From assembly GCA_903937385.1 (NCBI GenBank), contig CAIZZF010000020.1, positions 1 to 64,000 of the forward strand: DNA of 64,000 nt, given 5' to 3'. Made by a program: the position numbers and the translations under genes. Positions within the stretch are counted from its first letter, which is position 1; every line of letters begins with the position of its first letter. The notes beneath the pieces are model-generated. The model had not been told where the DNA came from. It did no database searches and was given only the letters and a program-made list of their open reading frames with translations. Positions 1-12,212 of this stretch are shown piece by piece. The stretch comes from an uncultured Holophagaceae bacterium. Lineage in GTDB: Bacteria; Acidobacteriota; Holophagae; Holophagales; Holophagaceae.

Positions 1-1
1 C

Positions 2-142
2 CAAGCCCCCACTCGGGCCATAGACTCCTTAGTCAGCAACGGCAGCCTCCTCTCCACTTGTTTCTTCGCAAATCCAAGTGAATCAGAGACTGCCGTTGCC
101 CTGTCTATCTACCCCTCAAATCCCGGAAGAACCAAAAATTAG
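2..142 (+). CDS. C-terminal tail of an unidentified upstream ORF (partial)
   Basis: The frame is open from the window edge to a TAG at 140-142, giving 46 residues that I do not recognise. It overlaps the 5' end of the kinase homology that follows. Moving back one base at the end of this frame leads straight into the kinase frame (the stretch starting KLDKYRL), so it is either the end of a separate upstream gene or the true N-terminal part of the kinase separated by a frame break. Short length makes chance openness possible. Confidence 0.3.
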   Translation, partial: QAPTRAIDSLVSNGSLLSTCFFANPSESETAVALSIYPSNPGRTKN

Positions 143-180
143 ATAAATACCGCCTCATTGCCCAGATCGGCGTTGGCGGC

Positions 181-1908
181 ATGGGTGAGGTTTGGAAGGC
201 TGTGGCCGATGGCATAACTGAACGCGAAGTGGCCATCAAGGTCGTCCGAACTGGTGCTGGCAAGGGCTATCTGGAAGCCTTGGCAACTGAAGCGAGGACT
301 CTGGCGAAAACACCGCACCACCACAATATGGTCATTCTCTACGATGTATTGGAATTGAGTGACCAACTTGCGTTGGTAATGGAATACATCCCTGGGGCTA
401 CCCTGTCGACTCTCATTGCGAATCACCCCAGTGGTTTGCCCTGGGACTTGGCTTGCCTGGTGTTCCAAGGCTTGTTCGATGGGGTTGGGCACGCCCACAA
501 AAACCGGGTTATCCATCGGGATTTGAAACCCGACAACGTGCGCATCGCAAATTTTGAACCCGAAAAACCCTTTGGCGCCCACGATATCAAGATTCTCGAT
601 TTTGGCCTTGCGCGAGCCGAAAAGCAGTATGGGACCCAGTTTACTCGTAGTGCTGCTGGGACACTCACCTACATGAGTCCTGAGCAACTTAAGGAAGAAC
701 CCCAGGGCACCTACACCGACGTTTATGCTCTGGGCATCATTCTCTATGAGGCATTAACTGGAAAACCACCCTTTGGCGGACCTGGGCAGGATAGCTTCAG
801 AGCACTCATCCAGGCCCACTGTGAACTCCCACCGCCCGCTCCTGGTCTAAGCCGCCAAGGTGTCAGCGGTTCGCTCGAACAGGCACTGCTTAGAGCGCTC
901 GCCAAGAACCCAGAGCAGCGTTTTCAAACGGCTGAGGAGATGGGGCGCGCCGTCCTGCCCCTCCTGCAGCGAAATGCGAATGACCCGACCATTGGTAAGG
1001 TCAACAAACACCAGGAGACTATCGACCTGAATGCTCTTCCGGGGGGCACGATCCTGGATCCGAAATTTTTCAGGAATGTAGGATCAGGCAGCCGGGCAAT
1101 TCCATCCAGCAGCAACGCCGTTCGGCCCACTGCCGGGCTACTCACAACACCACCGAGTCCGTTTCGCCGCTTCCTGAAATGGGGTTGTGGAGGCTGTTTG
1201 GGGCTGTTTCTGTTGAGCGGAGGATTTACCTATGTCATGAATTGGACTTCCCAGCGCTCCTCAAGAGAGGCTCAAGTCGCCAAGGCTAAGCTTCCAGAAC
1301 TTTGTGAAATTAAGGGCGGTGCTTTCAGCACGGTTAACTACCCAGCAGGCAAGGTCGATACCTTCCAATTGGCGAAAACGCCGGTGACGGTTGAGCAGTT
1401 CCGAGCCTTCGTAAAGGCCACAGCCTATAAGGCTGGCCAGGCCTGGGATCGGAAGGGCAATGACAATCACCCGGTCACTTCAGTGAGTTATGAAGACGCG
1501 GTTGCCTATGCAGCATGGCTATCAAGAATCACTGGAGATACTTGGTATATTCCATCAGAAGCAGATTATGAATTTGCAGCCTCTAATCGAGGGCAGAAAA
1601 TCGCCTATCCATGGGGCAACGACATGCCCTCGCCCCAAACCCCAATGGCCAACTCTGGTCGGATTGCCACAGTGCTGGATTCTGTGCCGACGACGGAAGT
1701 GGGAACTTTCCCAGCCAATGATCTCGGACTGAAAGACATGATTGGCAATGTTTGGACCTGGACTTCGACCAAAACGTCAGACGGACTCTATAAGGTCAAA
1801 GGTGGAAGTTGGGAGGACGCTCCTGGATTGATCAAAATTACCAATTTCGCCAAAAAGCCAGCAAACCTTCGGCATGAGAAATACGGATTCAGGGTGGCCA
1901 AACGATGA
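181..1908 (+). CDS. Membrane-anchored Ser/Thr protein kinase with extracytoplasmic SUMF1-type domain
   Basis: A Hanks-type kinase domain fills the first 270 or so residues: glycine loop ending GGMGEVWKA, AIKVV lysine, HRDLKPDN catalytic loop, DFGLA, and GTLTYMSPEQ before the APE-equivalent. One hydrophobic segment near residues 330-352 is followed by a SUMF1/FGE-sulfatase fold ending KYGFRVAKR. The C-terminal part should lie outside the cytoplasmic membrane and the kinase inside. The SUMF1 part has none of the paired cysteines of formylglycine-generating enzyme, so a binding role is more likely than catalysis. Kinase homology begins upstream of this ATG, near base 139 (KYRLIAQIGVGG), but no ATG, GTG or TTG lies in frame there, so the true start is unresolved. 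The stop overlaps the next gene's ATG. Base composition is more AT-rich than the rest of the window. Confidence 0.85.
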   Translation: MGEVWKAVADGITEREVAIKVVRTGAGKGYLEALATEARTLAKTPHHHNMVILYDVLELSDQLALVMEYIPGATLSTLIANHPSGLPWDLACLVFQGLFDGVGHAHKNRVIHRDLKPDNVRIANFEPEKPFGAHDIKILDFGLARAEKQYGTQFTRSAAGTLTYMSPEQLKEEPQGTYTDVYALGIILYEALTGKPPFGGPGQDSFRALIQAHCELPPPAPGLSRQGVSGSLEQALLRALAKNPEQRFQTAEEMGRAVLPLLQRNANDPTIGKVNKHQETIDLNALPGGTILDPKFFRNVGSGSRAIPSSSNAVRPTAGLLTTPPSPFRRFLKWGCGGCLGLFLLSGGFTYVMNWTSQRSSREAQVAKAKLPELCEIKGGAFSTVNYPAGKVDTFQLAKTPVTVEQFRAFVKATAYKAGQAWDRKGNDNHPVTSVSYEDAVAYAAWLSRITGDTWYIPSEADYEFAASNRGQKIAYPWGNDMPSPQTPMANSGRIATVLDSVPTTEVGTFPANDLGLKDMIGNVWTWTSTKTSDGLYKVKGGSWEDAPGLIKITNFAKKPANLRHEKYGFRVAKR

Positions 1909-3383
1909 ATATGCGAATCGCAGTCTCAATTGTTACCCTGCTCTTGCAAACGCTCCGTTTGAGTGGGCAAGAGGTGGAATCCATTGACAAGCCGAAGCCC
2001 AAACCAAAACCAGCGGTAGAACAGACGATCCAAGCGGGAGATACAACCCAAGCCAAGGTGAAACCAGGCCAGAAGGGAAAAGGGAAGGGCAAAGCCACCT
2101 CTCCCGCAGCCCCCCTCACAGCAGTCCCCGTCCAAGGTAATGGTCAAGCGCTGCCGACCAGCTTGCCACCAGGCATGACTTTGGAGGATCTCAAGAAACT
2201 GCAGGGGAAGCAATCCGGTGGTGAGGCGAAGAGGGGCGCTCCGGCAACACCGGCGGCTCCTGTGCTGCCTGCAATGAAATTGCCACCGCTCTATGATTTT
2301 GGGACCTTCTGTCTGGCTACTACGAAAATTCTCCAGGAAAATGGCCGGATAAACCCTTGGAAAGCGACCCTTTCGCCCCATACACCGTCGAGCATTGAGT
2401 TAAAGGGTTTGCAATCTATGGCCGGTGTTCAACCTGCCATTCTTCCATATTGCAGAATGTATAACATCATGGGTAGTAATTACTTGGGTCGAAATCGTAG
2501 TCAATCTTCGTTCGGCATCACCCTAATCAACGGCCCTGGCTTTGTTAAGGCCATGTTTAATCGAGAAATTCAAAATGGCGAAATCAAACAAGTTGATGGC
2601 GAAGAGTGTGTCGTTTTCTCCTTTGCCAATCACTTGGTCACCTTCTGGCCAGTCAGAAAGCCAGATGAATTTCCCGATACATTCATTGTCGGTTTTCAGA
2701 ACGGTAGCCTAGTAAATTACAATAGAGGATCTGGTAATACATTGGTTCCATTCAATACAAGTGGAATCCTTGCCATTACAATGTCTGAGCATGAGGCCTC
2801 TGGGTTATTCCGATTCCCCTTGTCTGACTTTACAGTGCCGGTTCGAGGAATCAGGAAAGGAAATGAAGTCTGGCTTGAGGCTGATCAGCAACGGCAACTT
2901 GCCTGGTTTTATTGGCGAGAAACTTATGTCCACAGTCCCGGAATTGGTAGTGTGGAATCGATGAAAACATTGCGCCTAAAGATAAAGTTGAAGGAACCTA
3001 GGCGGATTGATATTTGCTATGTCGCGCGGGGGTATGACGATCAACTATTTAAAATAGGTAATGATCTTCATGAAGAGTCAACTTTGTCTTTGTCCGTTTC
3101 TGGGGCAAAAATAGTTGATCTTGACGCCCTGAGAGAACCTTTTGTAAAGAACTTTAATACCAGCCCAAGCTGGAAAGTTGACGACGGTCAGGAAGGATTC
3201 ATGTTCCAGGCTGATTCTGCATTTGCGAAGGCTGGCCTTGTTGCTGACATCTGGGCAAACGTTGGGACTAGAGGCTCTATTGATCCATACAATAAGGATT
3301 GGGATTCAAACAGACGGTCGCAAATCAGAAAGGCAGAGAATCTCAATATGAATTTCAAACAGGCCAATCCACCGCCACAATAG
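1905..3383 (+). CDS. Exported protein of unknown function between kinase and FHA-ABC exporter
   Basis: 492 residues. The start overlaps the kinase stop (ATGA), so the two are translationally coupled. Residues 1-22 look like a signal peptide, with a hydrophobic core ending near SGQ. Residues 28-105 are Lys/Pro/Ala/Gly-rich low complexity. The remainder is a globular, beta-rich looking part that I cannot assign to a family. Placement between a kinase with an extracytoplasmic sensor half and an exporter suggests a periplasmic partner or a substrate, which is inference only. The AT-rich composition matches the kinase and differs from the window's other genes. Confidence 0.7.
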   Translation: MNMRIAVSIVTLLLQTLRLSGQEVESIDKPKPKPKPAVEQTIQAGDTTQAKVKPGQKGKGKGKATSPAAPLTAVPVQGNGQALPTSLPPGMTLEDLKKLQGKQSGGEAKRGAPATPAAPVLPAMKLPPLYDFGTFCLATTKILQENGRINPWKATLSPHTPSSIELKGLQSMAGVQPAILPYCRMYNIMGSNYLGRNRSQSSFGITLINGPGFVKAMFNREIQNGEIKQVDGEECVVFSFANHLVTFWPVRKPDEFPDTFIVGFQNGSLVNYNRGSGNTLVPFNTSGILAITMSEHEASGLFRFPLSDFTVPVRGIRKGNEVWLEADQQRQLAWFYWRETYVHSPGIGSVESMKTLRLKIKLKEPRRIDICYVARGYDDQLFKIGNDLHEESTLSLSVSGAKIVDLDALREPFVKNFNTSPSWKVDDGQEGFMFQADSAFAKAGLVADIWANVGTRGSIDPYNKDWDSNRRSQIRKAENLNMNFKQANPPPQ

Positions 3384-3391
3384 GAGTCCGG

Positions 3392-5509
3392 ATGGAAGCC
3401 TATCTTCTGAAGTTGAATACCCAACAGTTCTTGGTTGGGCGGGATGAAAACATCCCAGGCTATTCCCCACTGGCCACTCCTATTGTAATTAATGGCGAGC
3501 GTATCTCTCGGGCTCATCTGCAGTTGAACTGTGATTCTACTGGGCGCTGGGAAGCCATGGATCTCGGCTCTACCAATGGGACCTATCTCATTGGCCGGAC
3601 TGGGAAACTAACCCCTCACATTGCGGTCATGCTTGGCGAAGGAAATGATTTCCGCTTCTTCCTTGGAGGTCGGCTGCTCACTCTCAGCCCCAAGGGTGGT
3701 GAAGGGGGACGGCCAATTGTGCATGTGGTTGATCTAAAGGAAACGGCCCTTCTAGAAGTGAAGGGCGTCAGCGTTGATCGCCCGGCCGGTAAGGGAAAGT
3801 TCAAACGAATCATCCAGAACATTTCGTTCACGGCCTTCCCCCAACGGGTCATGGCGATCATGGGCGGTTCTGGTACAGGGAAGAGCACCCTGCTGAAAGC
3901 AATTAACGGCTACGAACCGCCATCGGTGGGTTCGATCCAGATCAACGAGACCAACCTTTATTCTTCCGTCGACATTCGACAGAGCATTGGTTACCTCCCC
4001 CAAGAGGACATCTTCCATGAAGGACTTTCCATCAGGGAAGTCCTAGAGATCACTTCGTGCCTCCGCAACCCTGCACTCAGCCAGGAGGAACAGCAGCAAC
4101 GAGTGAATCAGGCCATTCAGGATGTCGCCTTGGAATCGGCTGCGACTGATGGACGACTGTCGGCGGTGTTGTCAGGAGGGCAGAAAAAGAGGCTCGGAAT
4201 CGCGATGGAGTTGCTATCCAAGCCAAGAGTCTTGTTCCTGGATGAGCCCACGAGTGGCCTCTCTTCAGAGGACAGTTACGACCTGCTCTGTACCTTGAGG
4301 AAAATTGCCCGGGCCCATGGCACTTGCATCATCATGGTCATCCATCAGCCCAGCATTGATGTCTTCAAACAGATCGATGATCTGGTGGTGTTGAAGAAGG
4401 ATCCAGACACTCCGGCAGAAGTTGTGTACGCAGGGCCTGCATATCCGGATTCAATTCGGTACTTCCAGCGGGGTATTCAGCAGGCAACTTTGGAGGAACG
4501 CTATGGGGCGAACCTCAGCCCCGATGTGATTCTGCTGGCCACGGAAGGCAGTCGGGAGAAGGGCAGCCTCGGTTGGGATCTGCACCGTTGGCGTGCAGCC
4601 TGGGCGGAATCTGGATATGAAGCGCTACACCAACCGGTGCCAACCACCATTGAGAACAAGGAACTCCCCCCCCTCCGGCCGTTCGGGTTTGGGCAATTCG
4701 TCTTGTTGCTGGGACGGTCGTTGAAACTGAAGATGCGAGACCGGCGCACCATGTTGCTGGTCTTCCTGCAGCCCCTGATCATTGGCATTGCCCTGGCAGT
4801 GGCTTTGGGTTCATTTGATGCGAACTCCGATCGACAACTCTGGAATCACCATTTTTTCATGATGTTTAGCGCCCTCTGGTGTGGCGCTTCCAATCCACCC
4901 AATGAAATTGTTGGCGAGTGGAAAATCTTTTTCAGAGAACGGATGGTAAACCTTAAAGTGCCTTCGTATTACTTCTCAAAACTGTTCACCTTTGTCGGCC
5001 TGTCCTTCATTCAAGCGACCCTCTTGGGACTGACACTCGGCCTAGGGTGGGGACTGCAAATACCACTGCTCCACCTTGTTGGCGTACTCTGGTTGACTGC
5101 CGTCGCCGGGAATGTTCTGGGCTTGCTTATTTCCACCCTCGCTTCTACCTCTGAGTTCGCCGTCAGCCTTGTGCCAGTGCCTCTTGTCTTTATGTTGCTA
5201 TTTGCAGGCGGTCCACTCAAACGACTGCCCGATATGAAGCCTGGCGCACTATTCATCACCTATTTAATGCCGAGTCGGTGGAGTTTCGAAGCCTTAGTGC
5301 AAATGGAGGCGGAGGCGAATGGGGACGGCGGTCAAAAATGGCATCGAGACCACTTTGATATCAAATATTTGAATCGAAACGACCAAGTCAAAGAGGACAC
5401 TCAACGCGGCGTTGCCCTCATTGAGGCATTGAGAAACTTGGGTTTGTGGATATTGGCCGGAATCGCGCTCTCAGTTCTGGCCTTGAAACGAAGAGCGGAT
5501 AGGCTCTAG
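3392..5509 (+). CDS. FHA domain fused to ABCG-type ABC exporter (ATPase plus membrane domain)
   Basis: 705 residues from the ATG at 3392, chosen because AGGAGT precedes it by 5 bases; the frame is open further upstream but that part overlaps the previous gene. Order: FHA domain (about 10-100; GRDEN, SRAHLQ, LGSTNGT), ABC ATPase (about 120-400; Walker A GGSGTGKST at 158-166, LPQED Q-loop, LSGGQKKR signature, LFLDEPTSGL Walker B, VIHQP switch histidine), then an ABC-2 type membrane domain with about six helices (about 460-700). The order ATPase then membrane half is that of ABCG/White half-transporters, which dimerise. FHA domains bind phosphothreonine, so the kinase encoded two genes upstream is the obvious candidate regulator. 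Substrate unknown. Confidence 0.88.
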   Translation: MEAYLLKLNTQQFLVGRDENIPGYSPLATPIVINGERISRAHLQLNCDSTGRWEAMDLGSTNGTYLIGRTGKLTPHIAVMLGEGNDFRFFLGGRLLTLSPKGGEGGRPIVHVVDLKETALLEVKGVSVDRPAGKGKFKRIIQNISFTAFPQRVMAIMGGSGTGKSTLLKAINGYEPPSVGSIQINETNLYSSVDIRQSIGYLPQEDIFHEGLSIREVLEITSCLRNPALSQEEQQQRVNQAIQDVALESAATDGRLSAVLSGGQKKRLGIAMELLSKPRVLFLDEPTSGLSSEDSYDLLCTLRKIARAHGTCIIMVIHQPSIDVFKQIDDLVVLKKDPDTPAEVVYAGPAYPDSIRYFQRGIQQATLEERYGANLSPDVILLATEGSREKGSLGWDLHRWRAAWAESGYEALHQPVPTTIENKELPPLRPFGFGQFVLLLGRSLKLKMRDRRTMLLVFLQPLIIGIALAVALGSFDANSDRQLWNHHFFMMFSALWCGASNPPNEIVGEWKIFFRERMVNLKVPSYYFSKLFTFVGLSFIQATLLGLTLGLGWGLQIPLLHLVGVLWLTAVAGNVLGLLISTLASTSEFAVSLVPVPLVFMLLFAGGPLKRLPDMKPGALFITYLMPSRWSFEALVQMEAEANGDGGQKWHRDHFDIKYLNRNDQVKEDTQRGVALIEALRNLGLWILAGIALSVLALKRRADRL

Positions 5510-6727: not shown

Positions 6728-8464
6728 TTGTACACAATCCTGCGTTCCATCTGGGTGACCCTCATCCTGGTCATCTCGACCTCTCTCGGGGCTGCCAGCA
6801 AGCGCTCCGACTTCAACGGCAACGGGACCAGCGACCTGCTCTGGCGGAACAGCACCACGGGACAGGTCTATGTCATGCCCATGCTGGGCGGCGTGGTGCA
6901 GGCAGGAAGCGTGGTCTGGACCGAACCCAATCCTGCCTGGCAGATCGTGGGCACGGGCGATTTCGACAGCGATGGCAAGTCCGACATCCTGTGGTGGAAC
7001 AGCAGCACGGGGCGGGTGTTCCAGATGCTGATGAACGGGACGATGGTCAAGTCGTCCGGCCTGATCTACACCGAGGCCAATACCGCCTGGACCATCCAGG
7101 CTGTCGCGGACTTCGACGGGGATGGGAAAGCAGACATCCTCTGGCGAAACTCATCTACAGGCCAGGTCTACCTCATGCCCATGAACGGAGCGGCCGTTCA
7201 GCCAGGCGGCGTAATCTGGACAGAGCCCAGCCCTGCCTGGCATATCGTGGCGGCTGCTGATTTCACTGGGGACAGTAAGGCCGACATCCTCTGGTGGAAT
7301 AGCAGCACAGGACAGGTCTTTCTCATGCGGACAAACGGCCTGGGCGCAGCCACGGGGGCCATGATCTACACCGAGGCCAACACAGCCTGGAAAATCGCAG
7401 GTAGCGGCGACTTCAACGGGGACGGCTTCGCGGACATCCTGTGGCGGAATACGACCACCGGGCAAATCTACGAGATGCCCATGCTGAATGGGATACCCCA
7501 GACTGGGGGCATCGTTTGGACCGAACTGAGTCCTCTGTGGCAGATCGTAGCCATCGGCGATTTCAACGGAGATGGCAAGGAGGACATCGTCTGGCGGAAC
7601 AGCGCCACGGGTCAGATCTACCAGATGTTGATGGACGGGCTGGCGATCAAGGCTGGGGCCGGGATCTACTCCGAACCTGACCCGAGATGGGGCATGACGG
7701 AACAAACCAATCAGGTTCCGTCCCTTATGTTTGTCCTTTCTGGCAACGTTCCCCTGGAGGTCGTCAGCATCCCCGGAGGCACCTTCACCATGGGTTCACC
7801 GATTACAGAGTTGGCCCGACTCTCCGACGAAGGCCCGCAGCATCAAGTCACCCTCAGCCCCTTCTACATGGCGAAATTCTCGACGACCCAGGCCCAGTGG
7901 GTGGCGCTGCTGGGAAGCAATCCGAGCTACTTCACCGGGGACCTCAACCTCCCCGTGGAGCAGGTGAGTTGGAATGACATCACCCAGGTGAACGGTTTCC
8001 TGGACAAGCTGAACGCGGCCACGGCAGCCACGCGCCCGGCGGGCTTGGTGTTTCGTCTGCCCACGGAAGCCGAGCGGGAATATGCCGCCCGGGGTGGCAC
8101 CACCACTCGTTTCTACTGGGGGGACGATCCCACCTTCAGTGAGGTTGGGGCCTTCGCTTGGCATTCTGATGACTCCGGATCGACCACTCACCCCGTGGGG
8201 CAGAAATTTCCGAATGCCTATGGACTCTATGACATGAGCGGGAATGTCTGGGGGTGGTGCCAGGACTGGTTCGGAGGCTACGGTAGCGCAGCCCAGCTGG
8301 ATCCAGCAGGGCCTGCGACAGGCTTGCACCGGGTGCTGCGTGGTGGCGGTTACAGCAACGATGACCTCAGCCTCCGATCGGCGGATCGGACCAACACCAG
8401 CCCGACGGATCGCTATCCCGACCTCGGGTTCCGGGTGGTGTTGGGGGCCCCGAGGATCCCTTGA
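6728..8464 (+). CDS. Exported VCBS/FG-GAP repeat protein with C-terminal SUMF1-type domain
   Basis: 578 residues. The start is TTG, supported by GGAG seven bases upstream. Residues 1-24 form a signal peptide. Residues 28-327 are exactly six repeats of 50 residues, each opening with a DFDGDGKAD-type calcium-binding loop and containing ILW(R/W)N, STGQV and a TE..(P/T)AW motif, the pattern of integrin-like beta-propeller blades. Residues of about 345-575 form a SUMF1/FGE-sulfatase fold (FTMGSP, RLPTEAEREYAARGG, NVWGWCQDW, LGFRVV). The paired catalytic cysteines of formylglycine-generating enzyme are absent. Likely a cell-surface or secreted binding protein. Confidence 0.85.
   Translation: MYTILRSIWVTLILVISTSLGAASKRSDFNGNGTSDLLWRNSTTGQVYVMPMLGGVVQAGSVVWTEPNPAWQIVGTGDFDSDGKSDILWWNSSTGRVFQMLMNGTMVKSSGLIYTEANTAWTIQAVADFDGDGKADILWRNSSTGQVYLMPMNGAAVQPGGVIWTEPSPAWHIVAAADFTGDSKADILWWNSSTGQVFLMRTNGLGAATGAMIYTEANTAWKIAGSGDFNGDGFADILWRNTTTGQIYEMPMLNGIPQTGGIVWTELSPLWQIVAIGDFNGDGKEDIVWRNSATGQIYQMLMDGLAIKAGAGIYSEPDPRWGMTEQTNQVPSLMFVLSGNVPLEVVSIPGGTFTMGSPITELARLSDEGPQHQVTLSPFYMAKFSTTQAQWVALLGSNPSYFTGDLNLPVEQVSWNDITQVNGFLDKLNAATAATRPAGLVFRLPTEAEREYAARGGTTTRFYWGDDPTFSEVGAFAWHSDDSGSTTHPVGQKFPNAYGLYDMSGNVWGWCQDWFGGYGSAAQLDPAGPATGLHRVLRGGGYSNDDLSLRSADRTNTSPTDRYPDLGFRVVLGAPRIP
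6809..7708 (+). repeat. Six in-gene tandem repeats of 150 bp, arranged as alternating A/B pairs
   Basis: Six consecutive 50-codon units encode the propeller blades of the VCBS protein. Units 1, 3 and 5 carry WRN with (V/I)WTE.(N/S)P.W; units 2 and 4 carry WWN with IYTEANTAW; unit 6 is mixed (WRN with IYSEPDPRW). The true unit of expansion therefore looks like 300 bp. Confidence 0.85.
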
Positions 8465-9599: not shown

Positions 9600-12212
9600 A
9601 TGACCATCGCTCCCGGCAGTCACTTAGGCCCCTATGAGATCACCTCCCAGGTAGGGGCTGGCGGAATGGGGGTGATCTATCGGGCCAGGGACACAAGGCT
9701 GGGCCGCGAGGTCGCCATCAAGGTTCTGCCACCTGCCTTTGCTGAAGACGCCGAGCGCCTCCGCCGCTTTGAACAGGAAGCCCGGACCACCAGCTCCCTC
9801 AGTCATCCCAACATCCTCTCGGTGTTCGATACGGGGGTTCATGAAGGCTCCCCTTACCTCGTCATGGAGCTCCTGGACGGCGCGAATCTGAGGGAGAGGA
9901 TGGACGGCCAGGCCCTCCCCCTGCGCAAGGCCGTGGAGATCGCCCGAAGCGTGGCTGAGGCCCTTGCGGCCGCGCACGGGAAAGGGATCATCCACCGGGA
10001 CATCAAACCCGAGAATATCTTCCTGACAAAAGACGGTCGGGTGAAGGTGCTCGACTTCGGTCTGGCCAAGTATCGAGAGCTGGTGCTCGGGAACAACCAG
10101 TCCAACCTGCCTACCAATGCTGTCGTCTCCGGAGAGACCGGAGCCGGAGCCCTGCTGGGCACCGTGGGCTACATGGCACCCGAGCAGGTGAATGGGGGGG
10201 CTGTTGATGCCCGTACGGATCTGTTCGCCCTGGGAATCACCCTCTACGAGATGGTGAGCGGAAGGAGGGCCTTCAAGGGCGACAGCACGATCGAGACCCT
10301 GCACGCCATCCTGAAAACAGAACCACCCGATTTCCCTCCCGAGCTGAAGGTTTCACCTGTTCTTGAGCGAGTCATCCGGCGTTGCCTCGAGAAGGAACCC
10401 GAGGCCCGGTTTCAATCCGCGAGAGACCTGGCTTTCGCGCTGGAACACCTGGGGAGTGGCAGCCAGACCTCAGGGACAGGCACCTCGCCAATGGTCCGGC
10501 CCCTGTCGAAGCGAGCTCGCTGGGTGCCACTGGCCGCAGTGGGTCTGGGGCTGGTTGTCCTCCTTGCCGTTGGCTTCCTGCTGGGTTCTCGGCGTTCTCA
10601 GGGATCGAACTTCAAGATGGAGTCGGTGCTCCCTTCCCCTATGGCTGTCACCAGTGCCCGGTTCATGCCCGACGGCAAACAGATAGTGTTCAGTGCCAAC
10701 ACCGTGGACGGAGAGGAAGAGCTGTATCTGCAGGCCCCAGGGGAGCCTGTCCCCCGGCTTCTTGGCGTGAAAAACGCAAGGATACTCGCGGTTTCTCCAC
10801 GGGGAGAGATGGCTCTGAATTGGAAAACGCAGGGGAAATATGTATTTGCTGTTCTGGGGGCTCCGGGTCTCGTTCCGAGAATCATCCATGATCAGGAAGT
10901 GAATGCCGCCTGCTGGGATGAAGAGGGGAAAGAGCTGATCATCAAGTTCGTTGAATACGAAGGCCAGCCCACCCAGGCCTTCGTCTACAAGGGGAAGTTG
11001 CTTTACCGCGTCCCCTATGGCTATGGAGTGGGCGGGTTCACGCTCCGTCCGGATGGGAAGGGCATTTGCTTCATCGAGTGGCTGCCGGGAAACCCCATGA
11101 TCACTTCGGTGGATTTCAATGGCCAGGTTGATTTCCAACGGTCCGTTGGAAACGGCGCACCCTCAGCGAACGTTTCAGTGATGCGCGCTGGGGGGAGAGT
11201 TATCGGTCTGGACGCAGCAAGAAATGAGCTGGTGGCCTTTGATGATCAGGGGCGGCGCACCAGTGATCTCATGGCACTTGCTGGAGAAGCAAGCATCCTT
11301 GATGGCCTACCTGATGGGAGCCTTCTGCTCTCACCCATTGCCCGAGAATGGCCAGCTTTTCGAATCTGGTGGAAGCAACCGACTCAGCCGCACCCGGAAT
11401 TGGTTTCAAGCTCAGGGTGGGGCATTCCTAAATTATCAAAGGGGGGGCTTATTCTAGGAACGACCCAGTTTGTCCCTGAAGGTGAGGAATCCTGGTTGTT
11501 CCATAAAGGTTCCAATGCCTTCACGCCAATTGGGATGGGGATGCTCCATGGCCTCGCCGAGGAAGGTGATCGCGCCCTCGTATCAAGGCCCTCACAGGAG
11601 GGGGGCTATGGGCTATGGGTCACTCCCACCGGCTCTGGGAAGGAAGTCAAAGTCCAGGGCAATTGGATAAGCATTTCTGGGCATTTCTTCCCTAATGGTG
11701 AGCAGGCGCTTATCTCCGGGCTTGCTGTAGGTGCACCCGATGTAAAGCAGCTTTCCTACATTCTGGACACCCAGTCTGGAGAGTTGAAACCTCTGCCCTT
11801 CAAGGCTGTGGGCCCTGTTTCGGAGGACGGGAAATGGGCCTTCTCACGACCGGAGGGAAAAAGTTCGACTCTCTACGGGCGCATCAATCTGGAGACCGGG
11901 CAGAGGATTCCCTTGCCTGATTCCTGTAGAGATCGGCGCCCAGTGGAATGGGTTAAATCGGGCCAAGAAATCTGGACCCTGCTCTACACGAACCCGGATC
12001 GAGGTGAAATGCTCTTTCCTGTGGAGCTGGCACGGGTTGATCTGAAGACAGGTCGGATCCTGTCAACTGAACTCATCAAGGGGCCAGGGGTAAAAGGGGC
12101 ATCCTTGCTGGTGCTCTCCATCACGCGTGACGGTCAATCCTTTGCCTACACGGAAGGAACTCCAAGCCAGGATCAGACCAGACTCTACCGATTGTCCCCA
12201 GGGAAGCCCTGA
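9600..12212 (+). CDS. Membrane Ser/Thr protein kinase with WD40/PD40-like C-terminal half
   Basis: 870 residues. Kinase domain 12-275: GAGGMGVIYRA loop, Lys41 in VAIKV, Asp134 in HRDIKPEN, DFG at 152-154, GYMAPEQ. A single transmembrane segment lies near residues 303-325, followed by more than 500 residues with recurring beta-strand units (for example ARFMPDGKQIVFSAN, ISGHFFPNGEQALISG, LSITRDGQSFAY) typical of TolB/PD40 propellers, predicted periplasmic. This architecture is common in Acidobacteriota. ATG at 9600 gives the normal seven residues before the domain; its Shine-Dalgarno site is weak. Topoisomerase III follows closely on the same strand. Confidence 0.9.
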   Translation: MTIAPGSHLGPYEITSQVGAGGMGVIYRARDTRLGREVAIKVLPPAFAEDAERLRRFEQEARTTSSLSHPNILSVFDTGVHEGSPYLVMELLDGANLRERMDGQALPLRKAVEIARSVAEALAAAHGKGIIHRDIKPENIFLTKDGRVKVLDFGLAKYRELVLGNNQSNLPTNAVVSGETGAGALLGTVGYMAPEQVNGGAVDARTDLFALGITLYEMVSGRRAFKGDSTIETLHAILKTEPPDFPPELKVSPVLERVIRRCLEKEPEARFQSARDLAFALEHLGSGSQTSGTGTSPMVRPLSKRARWVPLAAVGLGLVVLLAVGFLLGSRRSQGSNFKMESVLPSPMAVTSARFMPDGKQIVFSANTVDGEEELYLQAPGEPVPRLLGVKNARILAVSPRGEMALNWKTQGKYVFAVLGAPGLVPRIIHDQEVNAACWDEEGKELIIKFVEYEGQPTQAFVYKGKLLYRVPYGYGVGGFTLRPDGKGICFIEWLPGNPMITSVDFNGQVDFQRSVGNGAPSANVSVMRAGGRVIGLDAARNELVAFDDQGRRTSDLMALAGEASILDGLPDGSLLLSPIAREWPAFRIWWKQPTQPHPELVSSSGWGIPKLSKGGLILGTTQFVPEGEESWLFHKGSNAFTPIGMGMLHGLAEEGDRALVSRPSQEGGYGLWVTPTGSGKEVKVQGNWISISGHFFPNGEQALISGLAVGAPDVKQLSYILDTQSGELKPLPFKAVGPVSEDGKWAFSRPEGKSSTLYGRINLETGQRIPLPDSCRDRRPVEWVKSGQEIWTLLYTNPDRGEMLFPVELARVDLKTGRILSTELIKGPGVKGASLLVLSITRDGQSFAYTEGTPSQDQTRLYRLSPGKP

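Follow-up and report, generated by a model that had tools for sequence, protein, structure and literature searches.

A differently built module of the PknF-Rv1747 kind in a Holophagaceae genome: a kinase with a SUMF1/FGE-type domain encoded with an FHA-ABCG transporter

To our knowledge, the main case in which a kinase is known to control an exporter by way of an FHA domain comes from a single pathogen system. In this system, the kinase PknF of Mycobacterium tuberculosis phosphorylates the transporter Rv1747, with which it shares an operon, and regulates it positively (PMC3908365). Rv1747 carries two FHA domains and undergoes phosphorylation-driven clustering (PMC3908365, PMC8573418).

The locus described here opens the window, i.e., the whole stretch of 64,000 nucleotides that was analysed (G000:C20:1-64000, from an uncultured Holophagaceae bacterium), whose base 1 is a contig end. 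Three consecutive genes on the + strand encode a kinase with a C-terminal SUMF1/FGE-type domain, an exported protein termed X, and an FHA-ABCG half-transporter (Table 1). As stated in a preliminary description of this DNA, the first two genes overlap (1905-1908, bases ATGA) and the third follows after eight bases; GGAG, located right behind the stop codon of X and upstream of the FHA-ABCG ATG, resembles a ribosome-binding site. The domains named in that description are confirmed by Pfam, with matches to Pkinase (E 5.6e-44) and FGE-sulfatase (Table 1) in the first chain, and to FHA (E 3.1e-9), ABC_tran (E 5.1e-30) and ABC2_membrane (E 2.6e-19) in the third. The AT-rich composition likewise holds, since GC is 0.536, 0.477 and 0.534 for the kinase, X and FHA-ABCG genes vs 0.686 for the window from 14 to 64 kb (GC3 0.56, 0.47 and 0.61, respectively); a mild drop in GC extends over roughly the first 12 kb of the window. 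Two qualifications apply: the kinase frame, close to the contig end, lacks a usual start codon ahead of its glycine loop, and the membrane segment of the kinase is weak when taken alone. Acquisition of the module, which the same description had proposed, is plausible rather than proven, given the low GC and the presence of a window-type FHA-ABCG in just 2 of the 77 genomes of the family (the window's own and G429, from another genus). None of the other genomes searched had the exact triple of kinase, X and FHA-ABCG.

Table 1. Features of the kinase/X/FHA-ABCG locus (window positions)
Feature	Position	Strand	Evidence
Kinase with C-terminal SUMF1/FGE-type domain	82..1908 (first usual start codon 181)	+	open frame, Pfam
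Candidate site for FHA docking, GGTILDP (pThr-x-x-Asp type)	about 1045-1065	+	hypothetical only
Juxtamembrane linker, cytoplasmic	1051..1155	+	alignment
Probable transmembrane segment KWGCGGCLGLFLLSGGFTYVM	1170..1240	+	alignment, hydropathy
SUMF1/FGE-type domain	1300..1905	+	PF03781 E 1.7e-35; solved FGE, pFGE, PvdO relatives
X, exported protein	1905..3383	+	N-terminal signal-like stretch; no Pfam/NCBIfam family
Gap between X and FHA-ABCG, 8 bases	3384..3391	+	X stop ends 3383, ATG 3392
FHA-ABCG half-transporter	3392..5509	+	Pfam domains, motifs
FHA domain	~3410-3670	+	Pfam
ABC ATPase	~3800-4400	+	GGSGTGKST, LSGGQ, LFLDEPTSG, IHQPS
ABC2_membrane domain	~4690-5310	+	Pfam

The C-terminal domain of the kinase has the FGE fold, as judged from the sequence match to PF03781 together with the matches to solved relatives. 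Formylglycine-generating enzyme requires two cysteines; the domain has a single Cys, near its start, and lacks the catalytic pair of the enzyme, and it is therefore read as a binding domain. It would lie on the outer side of the membrane. Hydropathy of the membrane segment is 1.41 in the window kinase, 1.65 in the homologue from G023 (a genome of the same genus) and 2.16 in that from G429, and the window segment is considered transmembrane on the basis of its alignment with the other two. The juxtamembrane linker of the window kinase contains a sole TxxD, within GGTILDP, the aligned place of which is occupied by NATVLDA in G429 and by no such motif in G023, which is without the exporter; among the FGE-kinases of the f22 clusters (see below), no single TxxD is common to all. 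The TILD sequence could be offered as a hypothetical docking site, a lead resting on two sequences. Padloc matches to defence kinases were set aside as generic matches to the kinase domain.

The transporter retains intact Walker A, LSGGQ, Walker B and H-loop motifs, and its best NCBIfam match is of ABCG type (pigment precursor permease). It carries one FHA domain only, with next to no linker between this domain and the ATPase. The FHA ligand residues GR / SRxH / TNG, the Arg and Ser of which the preliminary description had expected to be conserved, are kept in the window and in the 57%-identical orthologue of G429 (SRAH/SRHH). When compared with solved bacterial FHA domains, the window FHA had only one match at E <= 0.01, namely an FHA domain of Rv1747 (6ccd, E 1.4e-4). 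Predicted structures of the transporter and of X (mean pLDDT 41 each) were too poor for fold searching.

We favor, with a probability of roughly 0.55, the reading that the module is an ABCG-type membrane transporter gated by its kinase, in which an external signal acts via FHA docking. According to this reading, the non-catalytic SUMF1-type domain, aided by X, would sense a ligand or the state of the envelope outside the inner membrane, upon which the kinase would phosphorylate itself and/or a threonine. The N-terminal FHA domain of the half-transporter would then dock the phosphothreonine, for which the kinase's own juxtamembrane TILD site is a candidate, and this docking would join the kinase to the transporter and change the activity of the homodimer, for which the term exporter carries a presumed direction of transport. 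Because the FHA domain is single and has hardly any linker to the ATPase, trans docking to the kinase is more probable than the linker switch and clustering reported for Rv1747.

The kinase and the transporter are also encoded together in relatives. In G429, the FHA-ABCG gene lies beside that of an FGE-kinase sharing 49% identity with the window kinase over the kinase domain, and X is lacking. The order there is FHA-ABCG, HicB-like gene, FGE-kinase, the last being cut at the contig end; the sole gene in between encodes a HicB-like antitoxin (L161:1759-2148). Two distant relatives (G042 and G046) encode a zinc-ribbon-FHA-ABCG, an ankyrin protein and a kinase consecutively. As a separate observation, a locus of Holophagales UBA5704 contains four kinases, two further FHA proteins and an FHA-ABCG within 17 kb (L041:1144-18275).

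Wider sampling extends this pairing. In an all-bacteria sample of 80 ABCG loci, 60 with and 20 without FHA, a kinase was encoded within 3 kb of 17/60 FHA-bearing transporters vs 1/20 FHA-less ones (Fisher p 0.024, for related rows and uncorrected for kinship). A profile search within the phylum recovered FHA-ABCG in 36 of 396 genomes, representing 18 genera. Among 37 neighbourhoods outside the window, taken as +-6 kb where the contig permits, FHA was found on 36 transporters, a kinase was encoded in 14, and in 11 of these the kinase bore a C-terminal FGE domain; the other 26 of the 37 loci had no FGE-kinase within 6 kb, and G338 probably adds a twelfth FGE-kinase locus, which is cut by the stretch examined. 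FGE-kinase and FHA-ABCG are less than 100 bases apart in three loci (L209, L215 and L216). Since nine genomes with the pair, picked for having it, contain merely 2-13 FGE genes each, the chance expectation of an FGE gene in 14 kb is 0.006-0.027 per locus, with loci of the same genus being non-independent. These comparisons, which concern gene neighbourhoods, support the notion that kinase and FHA-ABCG belong together. Thus, for this pair, neither rare adjacency nor loss of the FHA ligand residues was found, and the kinase-exporter unit of the preliminary description stands through G429 and the phylum. The three genes as a fixed unit do not: X accompanies the kinase in only one other genome, G023, where the two are fused and the exporter is absent, and X is missing beside the G429 exporter.

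Conversely, the kinase and X might form a receptor that merely shares an operon with FHA-ABCG, with the kinase acting on other targets, whether FHA proteins or not, and the FHA domain reading a different kinase among the many of the genome. G023 speaks for this possibility, as it keeps kinase and X in a genome with no FHA-ABCG, indicating that the kinase has other outputs, and so do the 12 FHA matches above cut-off and the many kinases of the window genome. The recurrence of the FGE-kinase/FHA-ABCG pairing far above chance speaks against it, and we regard mere operon sharing as unlikely, although to be taken seriously. In G023, the gene for an FHA-GAF-SpoIIE phosphatase, itself preceded by that of a WD40 protein, lies 67 bases upstream of the kinase-X fusion (L033:6562-10678), so that the kinase is again found beside an FHA protein. 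The window genome itself has a gene of FHA-GAF-SpoIIE type that faces a long kinase gene head to head (L128:6634-11791, G000:C5).

The history of the pairing was examined in two trees. In the transporter tree, the label "FGE-kinase nearby" requires at least 4 changes across supported branches, the window and G429 form a branch of their own (100/100) apart from the other FGE-linked transporters, and the rows of f22 cluster with one named as Pyrinomonadaceae, from which the phylum name is inferred. In the kinase tree, the window, G023 and G429 sequences stand apart from other FGE-kinases. A single FGE-kinase clade was not rejected (AU p 0.10), and independent assembly is therefore not claimed; the pattern may reflect either an old partnership that was frequently lost or repeated assembly. 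As a tentative generalization, to which we give clearly less than even odds, kinases with a SUMF1 ectodomain and FHA-ABCG transporters could be a recurrent, repeatedly assembled system of this phylum, presumably the Acidobacteriota, in which an exported partner specific to each lineage (X or a TPR protein) would set the input and a juxtamembrane phosphothreonine would dock the FHA domain in trans.

Several further genes were noted around these loci. The window encodes an exported protein with FG-GAP/VCBS repeats that itself bears an FGE domain (6728-8464) and a second kinase with a propeller-like C-terminus, of a lineage different from that of the first (9600-12212). Of the four FGE genes in the window genome, two are located no more than a few kb from FHA-ABCG, and in G264, G184 and G390 both FGE genes of each genome lie within about 10 kb of FHA-ABCG.

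The 5' end of the kinase gene raises the question of whether the module is merely a remnant, in decay or mis-assembled, that has lost its signalling. The frame opens at 82, after a stop codon at 79-81, and no ATG, GTG or TTG occurs between that stop and 181, from which the open reading frame would begin within the glycine loop. As homologues begin just upstream of this loop (MQAGQKIDKYRLL in G023, MAQENQLIGRYRLL in G429) and the contig edge is near, one of three causes has to be assumed: an error of sequence or assembly, damage to the 5' end, or a rare start codon. The absence of a usual start codon at a contig edge, together with the patchy distribution and low GC of the module, would suit a remnant. 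On the other hand, the frames are otherwise intact (608, 492 and 705 codons for kinase, X and FHA-ABCG), the kinase, FHA and ATPase motifs are kept, and the defect lies at most 180 bases from the contig end, where assembly errors are likely. A remnant is thus improbable.

X consists of a signal-like N-terminus, a K/P-rich linker and a domain of about 370 residues, and matched no Pfam or NCBIfam family; its comparison with solved structures gave a chance match only, and a search of genome contigs with X as sole query gave no match. Among the 396 phylum genomes, a clear X was found in one besides the window's, that of G023, with weak matches in G004 and G160. In G023, kinase, membrane segment and X form one chain of 808 residues without FGE, X being the C-terminal part, placed beyond the membrane segment on what would be the outer side. 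The window kinase is 60% identical to the kinase part of this fusion over residues 18-414, and the two X sequences are 36-37% identical. The fusion suggests that X acts with the kinase on the outer side, and X is therefore most likely the kinase's outside partner, or sensor part, rather than cargo. By profile comparison (95%, E 1.8e-8, from shallow profiles), X is related to exported proteins that G004 and G160 encode as stand-alone chains with no kinase nearby; the genes of these proteins adjoin that of a small lipoprotein (L036 and L037). The idea that X, or a product bound to it, is the exported substrate, which the heading of the preliminary description suggests, draws on the place of X between kinase and exporter and on its signal-like N-terminus. 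However, a signal peptide implies export by Sec rather than ABCG, the fusion of X to the kinase occurs in a genome lacking FHA-ABCG (G023), the G429 exporter occurs without X, and ABCG transporters typically handle lipids and small molecules. X as cargo is thus very improbable, and the role of exported substrate gives way to that of a sensor part.

Lastly, the module shares its kinds of parts with the TagQRST-PpkA-PppA-Fha1 pathway (periplasmic TagR, the ABC-transporter-like TagTS, the membrane kinase PpkA and Fha1; PMC10482370), but a role in regulating a type VI secretion system is hardly credible, as the genome has no TssC/VipB sheath gene (no match to PF05943) and the FHA, ATPase and membrane domains are here joined in one ABCG chain.

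As a comparison, that pathway resembles the locus in its outside input, its membrane kinase, its output through FHA and the involvement of an ABC-type component in controlling secretion, and differs in using separate proteins that serve type VI secretion. The architecture of kinase and FGE domain recurs in chlamydial kinases with a C-terminal DUF323/FGE domain (PMC1262709), for which the accessible part of the source mentions no FHA transporter as a partner. Closer in gene content are the f22 clusters from other phylum genomes (L200, L201 and L204), which also encode an FGE-kinase, an exported protein and an FHA-ABCG together, in the order FGE-kinase, TPR protein, zinc-ribbon membrane protein, FHAx3-ABCG; unlike the window, they have an exported TPR protein instead of X and three FHA domains, and they occupy separate branches in the kinase and transporter trees.

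The described system that the locus matches best is PknF-Rv1747. In both, a kinase gene lies beside that of an FHA-ABC exporter in an operon, and the FHA domains are related. As in that system, FHA, ABCG ATPase and ABC2 membrane domains are combined in one chain, a Ser/Thr kinase is encoded on the same strand (here with X in between, and with adjacency kept in G429), and the phosphothreonine-binding residues of the FHA domain are conserved in the window and G429. In contrast to Rv1747, the window transporter has one FHA domain, abutting the ATPase, and its kinase bears an FGE-type domain, presumably on the outside, and comes with an exported partner. Moreover, actinobacterial FHA-ABCG transporters fall on a distant branch (Rv1747 itself is not a row of the tree), so that neither the two FHA domains nor the close actinobacterial branch of a strict Rv1747 orthologue is found. 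Phylum-wide, the pairing of FGE-kinase and FHA-ABCG offers many natural variants for asking which threonine the FHA domain reads. The module is thus of the PknF-Rv1747 kind, differently built and not an orthologue, and as a putative second kinase/FHA exporter, with a recognisable outside domain and a partner that a relative encodes in one chain with the kinase, it provides a handle on the input side.
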